Of a DNA stretch of 55,412 nt, positions 23,172 to 55,397 are shown one piece after another. The first letter of the stretch is position 1, and each line of letters begins with the position of its first letter. The position numbers were made by a program, and so were the translations under genes. The notes under the pieces were generated by a model. That model was not told where the DNA came from and did not search any database. It saw only the letters and a list, made by a program, of their open reading frames with translations. The stretch comes from Ottowia sp. (lineage in GTDB: Bacteria > Pseudomonadota > Gammaproteobacteria > Burkholderiales > Burkholderiaceae). Where the stretch lies: contig JADYYQ010000080.1 in the NCBI GenBank assembly GCA_020853585.1, forward strand, positions 1 to 55,412, in the 5' to 3' direction.

Positions 23172-25421
23172 TCAGGCAGCCATCGGTGCGTTACGACGAG
23201 GTTGTTTTTGGGGTGCATCGGCCGCCTTTACCGCCTGAGCGTTTGCCACCGATGCTGTCGGCTTTGGGCTGACATCTCCTGCGTTACCGGCTTCAAACTT
23301 GGGACGTTTTTGCCTGGGTTCTTGAAAGCCGAGCTTGCGCTGCATCTCGTCATCTGCATGTTTTGTAAGGCGCGCACCAAAAACTTCTTTGTCTACACTC
23401 AATAACACTTCATCGAAATACACAGGTTTGCCGTCCTTACGTTTATTCACGGCATTGCCGAAACCAATTTCCTTCCAGGTCGTATCGTCGCCGCTGCCAT
23501 GTGGTTCTGACAATGTAAGAAAATTAGGCTTGGTTTCACCCGTTGCCTCATTGGGTTTACGTTGGTTGAGATGCGCAATCACCTGGCGCTTTTCTCCGCC
23601 AATTTTGATATAGCCCTGGAGATAATCACCCTTACCTTTGTACAAAAGCACGGTGGTATCAAATTCCCCGCTTTCCAGTTTTCTCACCCCACGAAGGATT
23701 GCGTTCTGTTCTTGCTCTGCATGTGTAGCCGTCATATCTAAGTCCTTTAAGTTAATGCTGAATACTTCTCCGCGCAATGGATGACTGCTTGTTGCGGTTG
23801 CGCCCTGCCGCAATTCATGATTGGTTTCGGATGCCAGGTTGTGTGCTTGAGACGGTGTGTTGAGGGTGTTTTCGGTATGTGTTGGTGCGACGCATTGCTG
23901 GACTGATTTATCAAACCAGAAAATATGCTCCATCGATGGTTCTGGGCCAAGTACGGTTAAATCAGCCTGCAACTCGGCATCTGTTTTTGCCCAACTGTGA
24001 ATAGCCTCACGTTGTACCGTCCACCAGTCATGTGCGCGAACTGGAATAAGCGCGGGATCTAAATTTGGCGAGGTATTTATTGTGTCGCTAGCAGGCGATA
24101 TTTTTGCCAATACCTTGGCATCCCACTCATTGCGGTGTGTGGAAATTATTTCTGTACCAATGACTTCGCCTGCTTGGTTTTTAACCTCTTGTTCGACTTC
24201 GACAATTTTCTTGCCTTTACTTTCCAGGCAGATATCATCGCCAACGGCAATGCCTTTTTCATCAATGACGCGTTCCAGATCAACGCCCCAGAGGGTTGAT
24301 TGACGGCCATTGGCGTTTTCCAATGTGATGAAATAACTTTCTTTGTTGTTTTTGTCGTGTGCGTAATAGTCTTCGCCATGTCTAATAACCTTACCTGCAA
24401 GATGATTGATTTTTTGCGGCTCACGATGAGACAAAGTAGGCGTTACCTCTGTAGGCGGCGCATCTTTTTCTGTAATCGAGGTCGAACCTACAATGCTGTT
24501 ATGTTCAGCAGCATGGACAGGCAGTGGGGTGTCTTGGGTGTTTGGGGTGATGGTTTTAGCTAGCTCACGACGCAGGGCATCTTGTTGTGGATTTTTAAGT
24601 CTCACATCCACATTGTGTTTGAGCATGACCTCAATGGCACGGCGTTTAAATGTTTCTGTGCCGGTTAACTCAAATGCACCACGATATTTCTCTTTTGCCA
24701 ATAACACAGCAGCGAGGATGGCCTCCTCATCCTTATCTGCCTGTGATTCCATTAAAATTTGTTCGCCGTGGTCAATAAAAGCGCGTCGGTTATTCACCAG
24801 ATACAAAACGCTGCCATCATTGAGTGCTTGGTGGGTCACGCTCTCCAAAACTTTGCTGACGATTTGCTCGGGAAGAATAGGTGGAATATTTCCTTCTTCG
24901 GATGGGGTGGCGTTAGGCGTTAAATTTGAGAAAATAAAACCATTCAGAACGATTTTTTTATCGCTTGTTACTTCAGCGTTGATTTTTTGTGTGGCCGTTA
25001 ATGCCAGATTTTCTGTGTCGGATTGATCTAAGTGGGGAGATTTTTGCTGTTCGGTATCTTCTGGGGCCAGTTTTGTGACAAGAAAAGCTATTTCACTATT
25101 AACTTTTTGTAGCATTTCCGTGTATGCTGGATATACGGAAAAATTTCCCCTTATATGTGATGCAGCGGTAGTTTGCTCTGCCGCAACGCTATCCTTGAAG
25201 GCAGTGACATCAGCAGCAATCCAATGAAGTAATAGTTCATCAGAAATAGTGGGCGGGGTATGGTTTTGAGTGGTGGTTGATTGCCAGTTTAAAAAGTACG
25301 TTGTGCGTTGCTTAATCGACGCTACGGCAGATTGTTTTTTATCTTTCTCAGAAGGCAGAGGAGCAAAACGTTCATAAACAGCCTGTCGAAACCGTTGTAG
25401 TGCTGCGTCAGTATGTGTCAT
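23172..25421 (-). CDS. large LPD7-domain conjugation-associated protein
   Basis: A 749-residue cytoplasmic protein. Near residues 200-290 it carries an LPD7-like (large polyvalent protein) domain: 'VLYLVNNRRAFIDHGEQIL', 'YRGAFELTGTETFKRRAIEV', 'VDVRLKNPQQDALRREL'. Near 345-420 it has a second conjugation-associated domain of the type 'GEDYYAHDKNNKESYFITLENANGRQSTLWGVDLERVI' (boxes YFITLEN and LWGVDLER), which is often attached to relaxases. The C-terminal 150 residues include a strand-rich part near 600-690 that I cannot name. No relaxase or primase catalytic motif is present. The same LPD7 domain ends the relaxase at 50899-53121, hinting at a shared partner. It is transcribed from the bidirectional operator at 25445. 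Confidence 0.78.
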   Translation of the reverse strand: MTHTDAALQRFRQAVYERFAPLPSEKDKKQSAVASIKQRTTYFLNWQSTTTQNHTPPTISDELLLHWIAADVTAFKDSVAAEQTTAASHIRGNFSVYPAYTEMLQKVNSEIAFLVTKLAPEDTEQQKSPHLDQSDTENLALTATQKINAEVTSDKKIVLNGFIFSNLTPNATPSEEGNIPPILPEQIVSKVLESVTHQALNDGSVLYLVNNRRAFIDHGEQILMESQADKDEEAILAAVLLAKEKYRGAFELTGTETFKRRAIEVMLKHNVDVRLKNPQQDALRRELAKTITPNTQDTPLPVHAAEHNSIVGSTSITEKDAPPTEVTPTLSHREPQKINHLAGKVIRHGEDYYAHDKNNKESYFITLENANGRQSTLWGVDLERVIDEKGIAVGDDICLESKGKKIVEVEQEVKNQAGEVIGTEIISTHRNEWDAKVLAKISPASDTINTSPNLDPALIPVRAHDWWTVQREAIHSWAKTDAELQADLTVLGPEPSMEHIFWFDKSVQQCVAPTHTENTLNTPSQAHNLASETNHELRQGATATSSHPLRGEVFSINLKDLDMTATHAEQEQNAILRGVRKLESGEFDTTVLLYKGKGDYLQGYIKIGGEKRQVIAHLNQRKPNEATGETKPNFLTLSEPHGSGDDTTWKEIGFGNAVNKRKDGKPVYFDEVLLSVDKEVFGARLTKHADDEMQRKLGFQEPRQKRPKFEAGNAGDVSPKPTASVANAQAVKAADAPQKQPRRNAPMAA

Positions 25422-46786: not shown

Positions 46787-47116
46787 TTAGGCAACAGCCT
46801 GTTTCATAACAGGCTTGCTTGAGCGGTTTGTAGAAACTTTACTTGGTAAACAACGCATTTCTATATGGAAGCCAGCGGTACTAGCCATATTAACGAGTGC
46901 ATCAAGAGCGAACAAACTGATCTTTCCGCGGATTAAGTCAGAGATACGAGGCTGTGTAACCCCAAATAGCTTCGCTGCCTGAGCTTGGCTAAATTTAGTG
47001 GCAGAAATGTGCTCTTTTATGGACATCATTAAGGTTGACCGGAGTCTCATATTTTCAGCATTCCCACGTGTATCTTCAATGGCATCCCATACAGTAGTAA
47101 ATTGTTTAGCGCTCAT
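46787..47116 (-). CDS. XRE/HigA-like DNA-binding protein (HTH_37 type)
   Basis: A 109-residue transcription regulator with a helix-turn-helix 'FSQAQAAKLFGVTQPRISDLIRGKISLFALDALVNMASTAG' (about residues 48-88). This is the pattern of the HTH_37 antitoxin-like family. The start at 47116 (MSAKQFTTVWDAIED) is the family-typical one, although the frame is open to 47332. A 28-base palindrome lies 26 bases upstream and is the likely self-operator. The RelE/HigB-type toxin that usually sits beside such genes is absent. Confidence 0.85.
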   Translation of the reverse strand: MSAKQFTTVWDAIEDTRGNAENMRLRSTLMMSIKEHISATKFSQAQAAKLFGVTQPRISDLIRGKISLFALDALVNMASTAGFHIEMRCLPSKVSTNRSSKPVMKQAVA

Positions 47117-47141
47117 ATTAGACTTTAAGTTACCTATAGCC

Positions 47142-47169
47142 CAAAATATACAAAATTTTGTATATTTTG
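47142..47169. promoter_or_regulatory. 28-base perfect palindrome, operator of the HTH gene
   Basis: CAAAATATACAAAA followed by its exact reverse complement TTTTGTATATTTTG, upstream of the minus-strand HTH gene and downstream of the PcfJ-like gene. Perfect symmetry with no loop is typical of an operator for a dimeric XRE repressor. It could also reduce read-through from the gene upstream. Confidence 0.7.
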
Positions 47170-47201
47170 TCAAACGGGATACGTTCATATAAAAAAGGGG
47201 G

Positions 47202-49025
47202 TTATGCAGTATGTAATAAGCGTTTGTTGTTTTTACTTTTAAGTACTTGCTGGTATAGCTCGATGAGCTTAAATCCAGCAGCCTTTGCAGCATCTGATAT
47301 AGCGCCGTTGTATTTGGACATATGTTGATCACGTAAGGTTTTCTTGCCTTTAATCATGAAACCTAGCGTTGATCGACTACCGTCAGGCTCCACAACCGAA
47401 AAGGCTCTATATTTTCCCAGATGGCACTCGTTGCTATATTCACCAATACAGTGGTGCATCTCATAGCCTTCGATGGCCATGTCACGAGAGGTGCGCAATG
47501 GAGTAAAAATGATCTCATCAATAATCGCCTGGGTAAGAAGAGAGTCCCACTCAAGTAGCTTTTGTCCAGCAAGCGCACGCTCCATATTTGCAATGGAGAC
47601 ACGTGCGTGCCAATCATCAGAACGTCTAACGAGTGATTGCCAGGTGGCTTGTTTATCGGGATAACCTTCATCAAAGCCTTCAGCATTAAGATAATCCATC
47701 ATCGTTGAAATATTGGACTGCATATCTGCTTTTAGCCACTGCTTCACTGCAACAAAACCTTTTGTTTCCCACAATTTCGAGCAGTTCATCAAAAATAATT
47801 TGTACAGCGATTGAATACGAGGCGAAATACCATAAATCGGAAAATTGTTGCGCTCAGATGAGCGTAACAAGTATTGATAGGCAATCACAGGGACACGCAT
47901 ATTAACGTTAGCCAATGCAATATTTGTGATAATGCTTGTGCTCTTACCGCAATTTGCCCACTCCTTCACCACAACAGGCGAAGCTTTTGATAACCAGCGA
48001 TAGCCCGTGCCATTGTCGAAACTAGCATAGCGTGAAGTTGAGTCTTTACTCCAAAATGGACTGCGATCAACAAGCGTTGTTTTTCTTGTTCCTTTTATCC
48101 AAAGTTTTTTTGCAAACAAATCCGGCCTATCCCACTGCTCAGGATTAATCCCTGGTAACAGAGGCAACAGATTACGACGTTCCTGAGCGACCTTGAGTAA
48201 ACCTAAACGATATTTAGCATAAGCGAGATACCTTAGAAATGGCACATTTCTATAGTCCATGACAAGCATGGCGGAAAACACTTCTTTTTCGATAATATGC
48301 TGGAAAATGGCCGCCCTCAGTGCGCGTGCGCCAGCTTCCATTGATGCTGATGTGAGAAGACCATCCTTCCAACGATACCGTACGGTTTCACGGTCTAACT
48401 CACCTTCCTTACCGAGATATCGCACCATCATACGATCAGCCATCTGCTGCGGTGTCATTTCTGGTTTGCATGGCAAGAGTGTCTTAGAGCCAGCGGTTTT
48501 ATCGATGGACATCAGGATTCGTTTATGGCGTGCAGATTTTTTAACGATATGTTGATAAAGCGGCAATACATGATAGCCCGCAGCAGCCAATGCTTTCCAA
48601 ATAGCTTGCTTCACAACAGAGCGCCACCAGTCAAGAGATTGCGTTCTTTTGATCGGCCAAATAGGTACTTCTGGCCAATGCTTTAATTCAGAAACTTCGC
48701 TCCATATTTCACGATCCATGAAAAATTCATAAGTCTTGATCCTGCCATCAGGAAAGCGCTCAACTCTCCATAGATTACATATGGTCAATTGTTTGACATC
48801 CTGATTTTCAACTACCTGGCAAATACGAAATATTTTGTGTTTGATAATAAAGTTTTTTGCGAGGCGATAAACATTGAGTAAATCGTCACGACCGCCAAAA
48901 GATTTGCGTCGCGCTTTTTTACCCGTTTTAGCAGCAACCACCATGCCATCCGCCACCACCCCAAAATCACAAGATGAGAAATGGTTGTGTACATTCGTCA
49001 CTGAACTACTCTCTTTTAGAGTCAT
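47202..49025 (-). CDS. PcfJ-like protein
   Basis: A 607-residue protein whose C-terminal part (about 505-590) has the PcfJ-type box 'EGYEMHHCIGEYSNECHLGKYRAFSV', then 'RSTLGFMIKG' and 'RDQHMSKYNGAISDA', with the conserved histidines and cysteine. PcfJ was named on the enterococcal plasmid pCF10 and related proteins are common on mobile elements; the biochemical function is not known to me. The first 500 residues are basic and helical without recognised domains. The start has AGGAAA upstream. It follows dotC by 46 bases, so it belongs to the dotD-dotC operon. Confidence 0.78.
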   Translation of the reverse strand: MTLKESSSVTNVHNHFSSCDFGVVADGMVVAAKTGKKARRKSFGGRDDLLNVYRLAKNFIIKHKIFRICQVVENQDVKQLTICNLWRVERFPDGRIKTYEFFMDREIWSEVSELKHWPEVPIWPIKRTQSLDWWRSVVKQAIWKALAAAGYHVLPLYQHIVKKSARHKRILMSIDKTAGSKTLLPCKPEMTPQQMADRMMVRYLGKEGELDRETVRYRWKDGLLTSASMEAGARALRAAIFQHIIEKEVFSAMLVMDYRNVPFLRYLAYAKYRLGLLKVAQERRNLLPLLPGINPEQWDRPDLFAKKLWIKGTRKTTLVDRSPFWSKDSTSRYASFDNGTGYRWLSKASPVVVKEWANCGKSTSIITNIALANVNMRVPVIAYQYLLRSSERNNFPIYGISPRIQSLYKLFLMNCSKLWETKGFVAVKQWLKADMQSNISTMMDYLNAEGFDEGYPDKQATWQSLVRRSDDWHARVSIANMERALAGQKLLEWDSLLTQAIIDEIIFTPLRTSRDMAIEGYEMHHCIGEYSNECHLGKYRAFSVVEPDGSRSTLGFMIKGKKTLRDQHMSKYNGAISDAAKAAGFKLIELYQQVLKSKNNKRLLHTA

Positions 49026-50361: not shown

Positions 50362-50826
50362 TTACGATTGTGGTCGGTTATACTGAAGTACAAGCTTGTC
50401 GGTATCTTGCACAATCACCGCACGATAGCCAACTTGGGTACGCAGCATATTCAGTACACCTTCATAAGACCCATCTTTTACGTCGATATTGATAGGCAGG
50501 GGAACGCGTATTCCTGATGAGGAAAAAATAAGCCCACGATCATTGGCCAATTTTTCCAAAAGCTGCACAACGTCTCCGTGCCACTTGATCGCTATACGTT
50601 TCTGATTCCCTAAGATGGGGGAAGGTAATTTATCAATGACCTGGTTTAATGCGCCGGCTTGATACAAATCTGCCTGCGCAAGCTGTACTTTCTGAGATAC
50701 CTGGAGAATCTGTCGGTCTATTTCTGATTGAACCTCATCTGCTTGTTGTACAGGTTTTGTTGCACAGGCTGTAAGTAGTAAAGAACCAATCAGTAGAACA
50801 ATAGGTATAGAACGTATCTTAGTCAC
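50362..50826 (-). CDS. dotD: DotD (R64 TraH) outer-membrane lipoprotein
   Basis: Outer-membrane lipoprotein of the type IVB core. The signal has lipobox LTAC (cysteine about residue 21). A helical linker and a C-terminal secretin-N-domain-like fold follow: 'QKRIAIKWHGDVVQLLEKLAND' and 'VPLPINIDVKDGSYEGVLNML' fit. It has 154 residues and precedes dotC by 15 bases. Its own start is just downstream of the operator at 50840. Confidence 0.93.
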   Translation of the reverse strand: MTKIRSIPIVLLIGSLLLTACATKPVQQADEVQSEIDRQILQVSQKVQLAQADLYQAGALNQVIDKLPSPILGNQKRIAIKWHGDVVQLLEKLANDRGLIFSSSGIRVPLPINIDVKDGSYEGVLNMLRTQVGYRAVIVQDTDKLVLQYNRPQS

Positions 50827-50898: not shown

Positions 50899-53121
50899 CT
50901 ATCTTGTCCACCCCCTGTCTGGCCTTGATGGACCGCGCTCTTTTGAGACTTCAATGAATCTTGCCAATCTAAGCGCCTCTTGACCTGCATCTTCTAAACG
51001 CACGTCCATCTTGCACTCGACCATAATGTCAATCACGCGACGCTGAAATTCCTCACTACCCGTCAGCGCAAAATGATTGTCATATTTTTTACAAGCGAGT
51101 TTCAAAGCTGCTTCAATAACATTGCGGTCAATATCGGTATTGGCAGGTATATCGATGTGCAGGCCATGATCTACAAATCCATCACGGTTTTCTTCCGTTT
51201 TATACGCAATCGCACCATCACGACGAACACGATAATAAATACCTTCCCGCAAATCGTTCCCAACAACATCGTTGCTTCGAGTATGACAAATTCCGTTCCC
51301 AAAAGATTGGGAGACATTTTTAGATTGACGTTTTTCACTGTAGGCCCAAGCACGCAGTTGATTAATCGCCGCAACATCGCCATCGGCAGCTTGACACTCA
51401 ACCCACTCTTTGTAAGTTTGACGATGATTAGTCGGGTCTAATTTAAGCGCTTGCCGCTCTCGTAATATTTCTCGTCGCAATCGGTCGCGCGCGCGCAAAG
51501 TTTCAAAAGCAATCACACTGTAAAGTGCTTTCCTGGCAGCCAGATTAGTAATCGTATTACGCACCTCTATACGACGACGGCGCGTATCATCAGTCAATGA
51601 TGCGTAACGAAGACGGACATCATCGGGACTCAATCGACGATAAAAAAATAGTTTTTTGTAACGGTTATAGCGCTCACGTAATTCGCGTCGCGCTTGCGCC
51701 CGCTCTTGACGACGCTCTTCACGTTGCTGTAAATCACGCTTCGGCTCATTATATTTATCGTAGCTTGTTGTGAATGTTTTTGTTTCTGCGGCGACAGGCC
51801 GTTCAAATGCACCAAGCCGTTTAGTCAAACGCCCTTTAGACAAAGCCTCGTGCATATCGCTAGCTTTAATCGGTGTCGTTTCCTCAGAGGCTAAATCGAA
51901 AATAGCAAAACCTTGGCCCTTCTCTCGCAACGCCAAACCATATTTAGACAACAAGTTGTGTAATTGCCTCCACGTTAATTGCTCATTCTTGAGCGCGGAT
52001 AATAATGCCTTGCGTGGTCCCCCACGAGCGTAACTAAACAAGCTCTCCTTGTTATCATGTCTCTCCATGTCGGAAGCGCGTGTTGGCCGTTTACCTTTTG
52101 TATTGGGATCATGACTGCTCCAGTCAATAACTTGTACACCATCCCTTTCAAATACGGCATAGGGGCCATTATCGTGCTGCCAACCATATCGCACTTCAAG
52201 TTCACGCATCGCGCGATCAAGCTTAAAGTAATCACGTTCTGGGTACACAACATTAAAAGTATCGGGATGGACACGATTAACCGCGATGTGTAAATGTACA
52301 TTATCAGTATCCCGATGTACGGCAAACACATACTGATGATCCGCCATACCGACAGCTGCCAACGCGTGTACTCCACACTCGAACGCTTTGTCATCTGTTG
52401 GTGACTCATTAGTTGGCCAGGATAAAACAACGTGATACACCGGGTCTTTAACACGTACATTTTGTGCAGCAACCGCCTTCATCTCAGCACTAGCTGTAGC
52501 AAGTGACAAACAATTGTGTTCGCAAGCAACACCTGTCGGCGTGATAATCCGCTCCCGTTCTCCTAAAAGTCGGCCGGTTTCGAGATCGGCAAGAGCGTCT
52601 CTTTCATTTCGCTCATACCCTCGTTGAGCGGCTTGAGCATTAAACGTAAGGTAGGCTCTATGGGTTCTGGCTCGCGCTTGAAAGTCACTATCAATTTTTG
52701 AAGTCTGTCGGAGATAGCCTTCTGCTGAAACAAGATTGTGTCGAGTACGGGCAAGACTTCGTCGATGTTGATTCGGCTCTTTATGTTCATTTACTCGTCC
52801 GTCAACTTTATAGTCAACTCTTTCGTCAACTTTTCCATATTTTGACCCATTGGAATTAGCAATCCTTCTAGCACTCTCAAAACGGACTCTGATGGCATCT
52901 GCATCAATAAAATAAGCTCGTCTAGTAGCATGCAAATATTCTTCTGCTCCTCGGAGATTGCTTCGAGTACGCTCAAGAATTTTGAGGTATTTTCTTCTGT
53001 CGCTTGAATCGAGCTCATCGCTCATCACCTCCTTTTTTTCTTCGCGGTTAATCATGTACTCCAAAAGGTCTTTGAAATCAGATTTGCCATCGCGCCGACG
53101 TTTAGGGACTTTTGACAACAT
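50899..53121 (-). CDS. MOBP-type relaxase with C-terminal LPD7 domain
   Basis: Conjugative relaxase that nicks oriT and pilots the strand. The likely catalytic tyrosine is Y22 in 'GKSDFKDLLEYMINRE', the same place as in RP4 TraI. Motif III is H269-x6-H276-x-H278 (HRDTDNVHLHIAVN). Between them, residues about 28-190 are a helical insertion not expected in this family. It contains a 74-residue internal repeat (RTRSNLRGAEEYL at 51, RTRHNLVSAEGYL at 125), and two nested genes occupy the same DNA. After the nuclease domain come basic coiled coils (about 430-560) and an LPD7-like domain (about 640-725). It starts 2 bases after the stop of the RHH gene. The nuclease and layout resemble IncP TraI more than R64 NikB. 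Confidence 0.93.
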   Translation of the reverse strand: MLSKVPKRRRDGKSDFKDLLEYMINREEKKEVMSDELDSSDRRKYLKILERTRSNLRGAEEYLHATRRAYFIDADAIRVRFESARRIANSNGSKYGKVDERVDYKVDGRVNEHKEPNQHRRSLARTRHNLVSAEGYLRQTSKIDSDFQARARTHRAYLTFNAQAAQRGYERNERDALADLETGRLLGERERIITPTGVACEHNCLSLATASAEMKAVAAQNVRVKDPVYHVVLSWPTNESPTDDKAFECGVHALAAVGMADHQYVFAVHRDTDNVHLHIAVNRVHPDTFNVVYPERDYFKLDRAMRELEVRYGWQHDNGPYAVFERDGVQVIDWSSHDPNTKGKRPTRASDMERHDNKESLFSYARGGPRKALLSALKNEQLTWRQLHNLLSKYGLALREKGQGFAIFDLASEETTPIKASDMHEALSKGRLTKRLGAFERPVAAETKTFTTSYDKYNEPKRDLQQREERRQERAQARRELRERYNRYKKLFFYRRLSPDDVRLRYASLTDDTRRRRIEVRNTITNLAARKALYSVIAFETLRARDRLRREILRERQALKLDPTNHRQTYKEWVECQAADGDVAAINQLRAWAYSEKRQSKNVSQSFGNGICHTRSNDVVGNDLREGIYYRVRRDGAIAYKTEENRDGFVDHGLHIDIPANTDIDRNVIEAALKLACKKYDNHFALTGSEEFQRRVIDIMVECKMDVRLEDAGQEALRLARFIEVSKERGPSRPDRGWTR
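52563..52790 (-). CDS. nested gene B inside relaxase gene (alternative frame)
   Basis: A 75-codon open frame fully inside the relaxase gene in another frame. Its ATG follows directly on the stop codon of nested gene A (TAAATG), so translation would be coupled. The product is helical ('EVLPVLDTILFQQKAISDRLQKLI', boxes VLPVLDTI and RLQKLI) and is clearly similar to that of gene A. ColE1 (mbeB/mbeD in mbeA) and RSF1010 (mobB in mobA) also have mobilisation genes nested in the relaxase gene, so a relaxosome accessory role is likely. Expression is inferred. Confidence 0.6.
   Translation of the reverse strand: MNIKSRINIDEVLPVLDTILFQQKAISDRLQKLIVTFKREPEPIEPTLRLMLKPLNEGMSEMKETLLPISKPADF
52791..53018 (-). 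CDS. nested gene A inside relaxase gene (alternative frame)
   Basis: A 75-codon open frame in another frame of the relaxase gene. On the coding strand the ATG is preceded by AAAAGGAGGTGATGAGCG: an almost complete complement of the 16S rRNA end (AAGGAGGTGA) nine bases from the start. The relaxase frame itself has no need for such a site here. The product is a helical protein ('KFLSVLEAISEEQKNICMLLDELI', boxes FLSVLEAI and LLDELI) matching gene B at an offset of 74 codons, the same as the internal repeat of the relaxase. It is probably a relaxosome accessory protein; family not recognised. Confidence 0.68.
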   Translation of the reverse strand: MSSIQATEENTSKFLSVLEAISEEQKNICMLLDELILLMQMPSESVLRVLEGLLIPMGQNMEKLTKELTIKLTDE

Positions 53122-53123
53122 AT

Positions 53124-53426
53124 CTATTCACCAATTCTTGCAATAGCTGCACGAATTTCGACTAAAATTGACGCATATTCTTTAGAGAGAATGCCTTTAC
53201 CTTCATTGAATAAATGTTTTTGTAAACCACCGAGTCGCCGCAGTTCATTCAAAATATGTGCATCTACCTTACTACGAGTACGACGGCCTAGTGCCGCTGT
53301 CAATAGAAATTGACCTATACTCAACCCACAATCCATTGCCTTTTCTCTAACAAGCAACTCTTCTTGTTCGTAACAGCGTATCGGTGGCAACCGCCCAGTT
53401 CGTCTACGCTGTTCACTATTACTCAT
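53124..53426 (-). CDS. ribbon-helix-helix relaxosome protein (NikA/TraJ/MobC-like)
   Basis: A 100-residue basic DNA-binding protein, expected to bind the oriT inverted repeat and recruit the relaxase. The ribbon-helix-helix pattern is 'RLPPIRCYEQEELLVREKAMDCGLSIGQFLLTAAL' (boxes RLPPIRCYEQEE and CGLSIGQFLL). It is followed by the MobC-like tail 'ILNELRRLGGLQKHLFNEG'. It lies between the oriT candidate and the relaxase gene, the conserved position of TraJ (RP4) and NikA (R64). Confidence 0.88.
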   Translation of the reverse strand: MSNSEQRRRTGRLPPIRCYEQEELLVREKAMDCGLSIGQFLLTAALGRRTRSKVDAHILNELRRLGGLQKHLFNEGKGILSKEYASILVEIRAAIARIGE

Positions 53427-53660: not shown

Positions 53661-54053
53661 ATGGGGTATAAAGTTGCTCAAATAGAGGAGCTTCGCAAAA
53701 AGATATCCGAACTGCCTGAATTAGATATCTCTGAACGCGAAGTTACAAAGCAGGAAGCAGTTAAATTGTTAGCGAAAGAAGTATCTCAACTACAAAAGCG
53801 CGGGTACTCTCTCACAATGATTGCAGAATTTATGACAAGAAATGGCATGGAAATTTCCGTACAAACTTTGAAAACATATTTGACAAGGTCTGATAGTTTA
53901 CACAGAAAAAAAGACAAGACAAAAACAACATCCCATAAAAAAACAAGGGAAGAAAAAATAAAAACATCTATAGTAAAAGATGGTGAAAATTTAAAAACAA
54001 ATGTAGACAAAAGCAGTCCATTTGTCCCGAGAAAAGACTCTGAGGAAATTTAA
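53661..54053 (+). CDS. TraK-like oriT-proximal DNA-binding protein
   Basis: A 130-residue basic protein. The centre (about 35-75) holds a helix-turn-helix-like 'GYSLTMIAEFMTRNGMEISVQTLKTYLTR', and the C-terminal 55 residues are a Lys/Thr-rich, disordered-looking tail. Position (first gene on the far side of oriT, followed by a ParA-like ATPase), size and charge match RP4 TraK, which wraps oriT DNA. The match is by architecture rather than by strong sequence recall; the ATG has AGGGAA upstream. Confidence 0.72.
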   Translation: MGYKVAQIEELRKKISELPELDISEREVTKQEAVKLLAKEVSQLQKRGYSLTMIAEFMTRNGMEISVQTLKTYLTRSDSLHRKKDKTKTTSHKKTREEKIKTSIVKDGENLKTNVDKSSPFVPRKDSEEI

Positions 54054-54064
54054 AGGATAAGAAA

Positions 54065-54748
54065 ATGGCAAAACCAATTTACATAGTAGGGGGCAGTAAA
54101 GGTGGTGTAGGTAAATCTGTCACATCAATAGGGCTTATTGATACATTAAAAGAAAATTCGGAGGACATTCTATTGATAGAGTCAGATACATCGAACCCCG
54201 ATGTTTGGAAAATGTACAAAGATGAAGTCAAGACAGAGTTAATTAATCTCGATGACGCAAATGGCTGGATAGATTTAGTAAATATTTGCGACAAACATCC
54301 TGATTATGTAGTCGTGGTCAACACAGCGGCACGCAACAACAAAGGTGTAACCGCTTATGGCGAAACGCTCAACAAAACTGTGGCAGAGATGAAGCGAAAA
54401 CTCGTGACGTTATGGATAATCAATCGCCAGAGAGATAGCCTTGAATTGCTCAAGGAATACATGGAGGCTTTACCAGAATCAATAATTCATGTCATAAGAA
54501 ATGGCTATTTTGGTGATGAGCAAAAATTCGAGCTATATAACGGGTCAAAGACAAAAAAAACTGTCGAAGATGCAGGCGGTAAATCACTCACCTTCCCTGA
54601 TTTGGCAGACCGTGTTAGCGATGATCTGTATAGCAAACGTTTATCAATAGACGCAGCAATGAAAGAGTTGCCTATTGGTAATCGCGCTGAGTTAACCCGC
54701 TGGCGTAACGAAGTACGAAAGGTACTCGGAGCTGCGATTAATGCTTGA
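54065..54748 (+). CDS. traL: TraL-like ParA-family ATPase
   Basis: A MinD/ParA-superfamily ATPase of 227 residues with the deviant Walker A KGGVGKS at residues 12-18, 'ILLIESDTSNPDVW' (A' region) and 'YVVVVNTAARNNKG' (Walker B). It is unlike the partition ParA at 554. Its place in a TraK-TraL-TraM-like operon next to oriT matches RP4 TraL, whose exact role in transfer is unclear. It overlaps the next gene by eight bases. Confidence 0.82.
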   Translation: MAKPIYIVGGSKGGVGKSVTSIGLIDTLKENSEDILLIESDTSNPDVWKMYKDEVKTELINLDDANGWIDLVNICDKHPDYVVVVNTAARNNKGVTAYGETLNKTVAEMKRKLVTLWIINRQRDSLELLKEYMEALPESIIHVIRNGYFGDEQKFELYNGSKTKKTVEDAGGKSLTFPDLADRVSDDLYSKRLSIDAAMKELPIGNRAELTRWRNEVRKVLGAAINA

Positions 54749-55397
54749 CATTGAAAATACATTTGCAAAACTGCTAGGGCGGCAGCCGTCAGAAAAAGAG
54801 GTTCAAAATCTGTATAGGGTTAAGAATACCCTGGGTATAGGTGACAACGATGCGTTATGGCAAATTCTTATGGCGTTGGAATCCTATGACACCCTGTATC
54901 GTAAATATCCTGCAATCATTGCCAGCCAAGTGGAACAAATTACTGAAAGCCAACGTACTTTAATGGCTACCATTGCTGATACAGAAACAAAAAAAGCGCT
55001 TGGGACACTGGCTCATGCAGTCAGCCGAACAAGTGAGACTATTGCCGTGAAACTCGCTGAAGCATCACGACTGCAATCATGGGGATGGGTATTAATTGGC
55101 TTTGTTCTCTTCGGCTCATTATGTACATCGCTTGGATTTGTACTTGGTAGCGGCCACATACCCTATTGGGCAGAGAACACAATCGGACAAAGCCCGCTTA
55201 GAGTAATTTTTGGGACATTAGCCCAAACACCAGCAGGATGGATTGCCGCAATTGGCGGAACTTCAGCGGCATTATCTGCGCTATGGCAGGCAAGGGCAGA
55301 AATAAAAGCGAGACATAGATTGGGATTTTTGGCAGGCAGTATATTACTCACGGTCATTTCCTGTTCTTTTTTATGGCCTGTTTTTGGGGGGAAATAG
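54741..55397 (+). CDS. TraM-like membrane protein of the relaxosome operon
   Basis: A 218-residue protein. The N-terminal half (about 1-110) is helical and soluble ('LGIGDNDALWQILMALESYD' and repeated Thr/Glu helices). Three hydrophobic segments follow at about 113-135 (WGWVLIGFVLFGSLCTSLGFVLG), 162-180 and 198-215. Helical start plus membrane end fits the TraM-like proteins behind TraL; RP4 TraM itself is shorter. A role in anchoring the relaxosome to the membrane is possible. It is the last complete gene in the window. Confidence 0.72.
   Translation: MLDIENTFAKLLGRQPSEKEVQNLYRVKNTLGIGDNDALWQILMALESYDTLYRKYPAIIASQVEQITESQRTLMATIADTETKKALGTLAHAVSRTSETIAVKLAEASRLQSWGWVLIGFVLFGSLCTSLGFVLGSGHIPYWAENTIGQSPLRVIFGTLAQTPAGWIAAIGGTSAALSALWQARAEIKARHRLGFLAGSILLTVISCSFLWPVFGGK

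Follow-up and report, generated by a model that had tools for sequence, protein, structure and literature searches.

Comparison with relatives shows that two small genes lie one after the other inside a relaxase gene, wholly in its +1 frame, and that both frames of the shared DNA are coding and subject to purifying selection, which is stronger on the nested one. The genes, hereafter ORF1 and ORF2, were found in a stretch of 55,412 nucleotides, which we call the window. Our preferred reading, which we hold to be somewhat probable given their conservation and the analogy with RP4, is that both genes are genuine and translated, and that their products are paralogous accessory proteins of the relaxosome with a role like that of TraH, members of an unnamed +1-nested family.

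Layout of the nested pair and its start signals

The host gene encodes a MOBP TraI-type relaxase with an N-terminal catalytic Tyr, HUH histidines and a TraI_middle domain. The features of the locus and its surroundings are as follows.

50362..50826, minus strand: DotD/TraH-family lipoprotein (PF16816), a downstream MPF_I gene that has only its name in common with RP4 TraH
50899..53121, minus strand: relaxase, the host gene (MOBP TraI-type, 740 aa; NF041893, 3e-119), with Tyr22 in the N-terminal motif, PF03432 at residues 200-314, TraI_middle at 347-440 and LPD7 at 628-718
52288..52296, minus strand: relaxase His276-x-His278 codons, downstream of the nested genes
52563..52790, minus strand: nested ORF2, 75 aa, +1 frame, paralogue of ORF1
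52788..52793, minus strand: TAA/ATG junction, the ORF1 stop and ORF2 start
52791..53018, minus strand: nested ORF1, 75 aa, +1 frame, acidic (pI 4.4)
53026..53034, minus strand: Shine-Dalgarno (SD) sequence AAGGAGGTG of ORF1 (anti-SD duplex -12.9 kcal/mol)
53056..53058, minus strand: relaxase Tyr22 codon, upstream of the nested genes
53124..53426, minus strand: NikA-like/TraJ-like oriT-recognition protein (PF21983, 5.8e-15), in the same operon as the relaxase
53661..54053, plus strand: divergent small gene in the TraK position of RP4 Tra1 (gene order only; no significant family match)
54065..54748, plus strand: ParA-like MobD/TraL (CbiA, 9.7e-10; "protein mobD" in homologous records)
54741..55397, plus strand: gene in the TraM position (gene order only)

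The order of the NikA-like gene, the relaxase and the divergent genes in the TraK, TraL and TraM positions is that of RP4 Tra1. The first-pass annotation had described two 75-codon minus-strand frames with a TAAATG junction inside the relaxase, and we found them at 53018-52791 and 52790-52563, at offsets of 103 and 331 in the relaxase gene. They lie between Tyr22 and the histidine motifs, and Tyr22, His269, His276 and His278 are all invariant in 20 relaxase relatives. The match to the relaxase core begins at residue 200, with Tyr22 far N-terminal to it. The enlargement of the relaxase after Tyr22, which the first-pass annotation had proposed by comparison with the RP4 layout, is borne out by the HxH motif, located near residue 276 here vs about 117 in pRA2 TraI, which is free of the insertion. 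The pI of ORF2 in the window is 6.2, i.e., not acidic. Elsewhere in the window, a 749-aa ORF (23172-25421, minus strand) carries an LPD7-like segment matching relaxase residues 620-719 with no relaxase domain, its product being a large polyvalent-type protein, and a 181-aa ORF (46787-47332, minus strand) looks, by eye, antitoxin-like, with an XRE-type helix-turn-helix-like C-terminal part.

The anti-SD duplex before ORF1 compares with -2.8 kcal/mol at the relaxase start and an average of -1.3 +/- 2.4 over positions sampled from the window; the SD of ORF2 itself is weak in the window (-3.2). The strong signal claimed for ORF1 is therefore present, but its rank as the strongest of the window is unclear, since a second exact copy, the only other one, is found at 236-244. 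Over 17 loci, mean SD energies were -7.0 for ORF1, -7.4 for ORF2 and -5.5 for the relaxase, against -1.3 at random positions, so that SD signals are enriched at the starts of both nested ORFs. One homologue (L013) has GCG at the ORF1 start where others have GTG.

Selection, duplication and rival readings of the insertion

Selection was assessed on codon-aligned relaxases from 18 non-redundant relatives, scoring relaxase codons with identical first two bases and a fourfold-degenerate third base. Between relaxases of 60-70% identity, such sites differed at 5% in ORF1 and 12% in ORF2, vs 70% in the rest of the gene; at 40-60% identity, the values were 11% and 12%, vs 75% elsewhere. This suppression of synonymous change, about 6- to 14-fold, is confined to the borders of the nested ORFs, from the start of ORF1 to the end of ORF2, and Fisher tests on four disjoint pairs gave p values of 1.3e-12 to 4.1e-15. 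In a 15-codon sliding window, the difference stayed at 0.00-0.28 within the nested genes, reaching up to 0.45 at the extreme end of ORF2, and stood at 0.7-0.8 just before codon 35 and after approximately codon 180. Further downstream in the relaxase the sliding-window minimum was 0.59, and therefore no second nested gene is indicated there. Synonymous constraint, which the first-pass annotation had proposed to test, is thus seen over the nested ORFs, with fourfold change of 5-12% inside vs about 70-75% elsewhere.

The amino acid comparison tells which frame is the more constrained. In the two most divergent identity bins, +1-frame identity within the insertion was 0.57-0.72 for ORF1 and 0.53-0.69 for ORF2, vs 0.38-0.52 and 0.46-0.58 for the relaxase frame over the same two parts, and +1-frame identity outside the insertion was 0.21-0.29. 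The nested frame was better conserved than the relaxase frame within the insertion in all identity bins. At the same time, sites free with respect to the nested frame differed at 0.60 (ORF1) and 0.46 (ORF2), vs 0.75 at free sites elsewhere. Because +1 identity is higher, yet relaxase-frame sites are constrained too, we conclude that both frames are coding and that, judged by these comparisons, it is mainly the nested frame, not the relaxase frame, that constrains the insertion.

That the two products are homologous, that a 222-base unit is repeated and that the relaxase frame shows the same repeat had all been proposed earlier, and each proposal holds. ORF1 and ORF2 align with a local score of 63 vs 28 +/- 5 in shuffles (none of 500 as high) and match in a profile-profile comparison with E=1.3e-7 and probability 94; at an offset of 222, nucleotide identity is 47% vs 25 +/- 4% at other offsets, and the relaxase-frame units match each other with a score of 56 vs 27 +/- 5. 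With both frames open and constrained and the nested products being paralogues, the earlier idea of overprinting with duplication agrees with our data. The pair had also been presented as peculiar to this position: tandem paralogues are indeed found here, but they are not position-specific. Since the family is nested in other relaxases at other sites, paired or single (see below), the duplication, as far as sequence comparison tells, predates the window-type relaxase group.

The number of relaxase-frame units varies, from zero in pRA2 and one in the Burkholderia loci L036-L038 to two in the window type and possibly three in Bordetella L005. The Burkholderia loci possess one fused unit, in which the relaxase frame is kept and the nested product is eroded, with no copy of the nested family elsewhere in the genome. 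Since the L037 relaxase is apparently intact without the nested product, the nested function seems dispensable at least in that lineage. In Bordetella pseudohinzii L005, an apparent third relaxase-frame unit occupies approximately codons 195-260 and has no corresponding nested ORF, while the two nested ORFs remain. In L048 and L039 (plasmid or symbiont loci), the relaxase frame is broken and the nested ORFs are largely intact; these are probably decaying transfer genes.

Several other readings of the insertion have to be weighed against two genes nested in a relaxase. If the openness of the +1 frame were a by-product of composition or of constraint on the relaxase, there would be no nested gene at all. 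When synonymous codons of the window relaxase were shuffled, 9% of trials had no more +1 stops than the real gene, a share that rose to 48-67% for some relatives of higher GC content; this is not significant and weak as single-genome evidence. Against this stand synonymous suppression exactly inside the ORF borders, +1 identity exceeding relaxase-frame identity and replication in a second relaxase type, nor would an RNA structure or oriT signal produce codon-phase-specific +1 conservation; for protein coding, we regard this reading as effectively refuted. It is also very improbable, and largely refuted, that the relaxase truly begins downstream and that the nested ORFs are two ordinary, non-overlapping genes, as PGAP has it for several plasmids, where traI is begun after two hypothetical proteins (in L002, at 3565). 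Such a late start would drop the invariant Tyr22 block; moreover, codons 1-33 diverge as normal coding sequence in the relaxase frame (fourfold difference 0.7-0.8), and that frame is open except in the decayed loci L048 and L039 and is constrained over the ORFs too. An insertion that is primarily a relaxase-frame repeat domain, with the nested frame secondary, would account for the unit persisting in Burkholderia L036-L038 despite the eroded nested frame, as well as for the possible third unit of Bordetella L005 lacking a matching ORF. We find this unlikely, given the better conservation of the nested frame in all identity bins and the AlphaFold pLDDT of only 24-45 over the insertion (from five sequences).

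Distribution of the nested family

A tblastn search of PLSDB yielded 37 plasmid records matching the relaxase over at least 80% of its length, and all of them also matched the nested ORFs. Their hosts belong to Pseudomonas, Stutzerimonas, Xanthomonas, Stenotrophomonas, Burkholderia, Paraburkholderia and Bordetella. PLSDB searches with ORF1 only and ORF2 only recovered these same plasmids, and further copies were obtained from genome contigs. All good tblastn places lay under relaxase features or in the matching interval of an unannotated relaxase. The records of RP4, pRA2, Y. ruckeri and IncI plasmids showed neither a comparable insertion nor the nested family, and no nested ORFs of this family were found in the IncI NikB insertion. 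The question raised earlier, whether the insertion occurs only with an open alternative frame, is thus mostly answered in the affirmative, with Burkholderia L036-L038 as the one exception. In the PLSDB records L002-L005, L015, L044 and L048, the traI start set by PGAP falls within or beyond the nested genes, and the catalytic tyrosine block is lost from the annotated product.

The family also occurs in other relaxases. In TraI of Methylovorus pMsip01 (L046, MPF_T), an ORF1-like and an ORF2-like gene are paired in the +1 frame at codons ~310-459, that is, after TraI_middle, vs before the histidine motifs in the window relaxase. A single +1 copy is found between the catalytic part and the LPD7 domain of LPD7-type relaxases from Vibrio japonicus, V. 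parahaemolyticus pFORC14, Xanthomonas arboricola and the Burkholderiales genome L057 (the loci in which the frame was read being L047, L055, L056 and L057), and about 20 PLSDB records have family matches under LPD7-type relaxases. Herein, fourfold sites differed at 8/67 inside the nested ORF vs 197/309 and 218/334 outside, i.e., 12% vs ~65%, and +1 identity was 0.49 vs 0.31 for the relaxase frame. Thus, the family occupies three different sites within TraI-type and LPD7-type relaxases, +1 and nested in every case read. The Methylovorus and LPD7-type members are not described as genes in the records read. Most family members have a pI of 4.1-4.6 (4.4 for RP4 TraH).

In a tree of the nested proteins, which is indicative, being built on short sequences, Methylovorus ORF1 falls among the ORF1s, its ORF2 among the ORF2s and the single copies between them (local supports 0.96-0.97). 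As Methylovorus ORF1 and ORF2 group with their respective counterparts, the duplication seems to have preceded the divergence of the two TraI sites. Since both frames are read from the same DNA, resemblance of the relaxase frames at different sites adds no independent evidence.

No standalone copies were found in the PLSDB plasmid searches or in ~1,270 genomes. A wider scan over 369 class, 399 order and 399 phylum genomes added just two nested cases, L057 and the doubtful L059; plasmids are the real habitat of the nested family. L059 (on the reverse strand of the G514 relaxase contig, at ~1400-2000 counted from its reverse end) is a different relaxase with a 55-aa family-like +1 ORF (E 4.5e-4); the next ORF in the same +1 frame is Cys-rich, with a CxxC...YC pattern recalling RP4 TraH (shuffle p 0.03, weak), so this relaxase possibly holds both kinds of nested gene together. 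Two other matches were discarded: L054 from IMG/VR is a collagen-like phage protein matched by chance, and L058 is a TPR-type protein whose match looks like chance.

A broader idea, in which we place about as much belief as doubt, is that the family would be obligately overprinted and confined to relaxases, spreading as a dual-coding cassette, always in +1, tandem-duplicated with both frames open and forcing the insertion on its host. The reality of overlapping genes in bacteria is often questioned; the present case is clear, has sharply defined borders and recurs in two relaxase types. It offers natural variation in copy number (0, 1 or 2 nested copies, plus a lineage with loss) and illustrates that a sequence coding in two frames can undergo duplication and, it seems, move to new sites. 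An annotation error comes to light as well, in that pipelines start several relaxases past the nested genes and lose the catalytic tyrosine.

Possible function and comparison with known systems

An AlphaFold model of the nested pair has two helices per ORF, with moderate to low confidence (pLDDT 65, pTM 0.48), and it matched only generic helical bundles in the PDB, none with an E-value <=0.001. The relaxase model was poor (pLDDT 52). The structure models rest on 5-sequence alignments.

In the mechanism that we propose, the strong SD would start ORF1, and the adjacent TAA/ATG presumably couples translation of ORF2 to that of ORF1. Relaxase mRNA would then give rise to small helical-hairpin proteins, probably in excess of the relaxase, judging by SD strength only. 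ORF1 may pair with ORF2, possibly as a four-helix bundle, and their complex would bind at oriT to the relaxase, alone or together with the NikA-like protein, and would stabilise the relaxosome ahead of transfer, in the way reported for RP4 TraH. The relaxase-frame insertion would mainly be a tolerated linker imposed by the overprinted genes. A partner at the relaxase or oriT, rather than a particular channel, is suggested because the carrier plasmids are typed MPF_I or MPF_T or lack their own MPF (mobilizable).

It is less probable, though still worth serious thought, that the nested ORFs are genuine but act elsewhere: in entry exclusion, in relaxase docking at the coupling protein, or as a regulator or counter-defence factor early in transfer. 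Small coiled-coil-like proteins nested in relaxase genes (MbeB, MbeD and MobB) have various roles, entry exclusion having been reported for ColE1 MbeD, and the strong SD of ORF1 suits high output. However, constant nesting within various relaxases, on MPF_I, MPF_T and mobilizable carriers alike, better suits a relaxase partner than a channel-specific exclusion protein. With a relaxosome role as the preferred reading, ORF1 and ORF2 would represent a conserved, unstudied protein pair of the conjugation start complex on Pseudomonas, Burkholderia and Xanthomonas plasmids.

No fitting family was found in Pfam, NCBIfam, PHROGs or the PDB, the only matches being sub-threshold or single-member, and no description of these nested genes was found in the literature covered, which lay outside subscription journals. 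Homology with RP4 TraH was rejected, as the nested ORFs scored 24 and 21 and shuffled sequences scored as well.

In RP4, a second frame of traI encodes TraH, which stabilises the complex of TraI and TraJ at oriT (PMC7314908). Like the nested pair, TraH of RP4/RK2 is small, acidic (as are most members) and wholly +1 within a MOBP traI; unlike the pair, it lies at codons ~513-632, is a single copy of 119 aa with a Cys-rich C-terminus, and has no sequence similarity to it. ColE1 MbeB and MbeD are likewise two small out-of-frame genes, nested in the MOBP relaxase gene mbeA; they are not known as mutual paralogues, and they differ from the nested pair in that their Pfam models were unmatched by any of 17 family members with E up to 10. 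RSF1010 MobB is an accessory protein that overlaps the mobA relaxase gene in another frame; it differs in being a single larger protein of a MOBQ relaxase, and no Pfam similarity to it was found. Overall, genes for accessory proteins nested within relaxase genes have precedents in TraH, MbeB/MbeD and MobB. As far as the literature was searched, what is new is this family, the tandem arrangement of two of its paralogues and its presence at several sites in more than one relaxase type.
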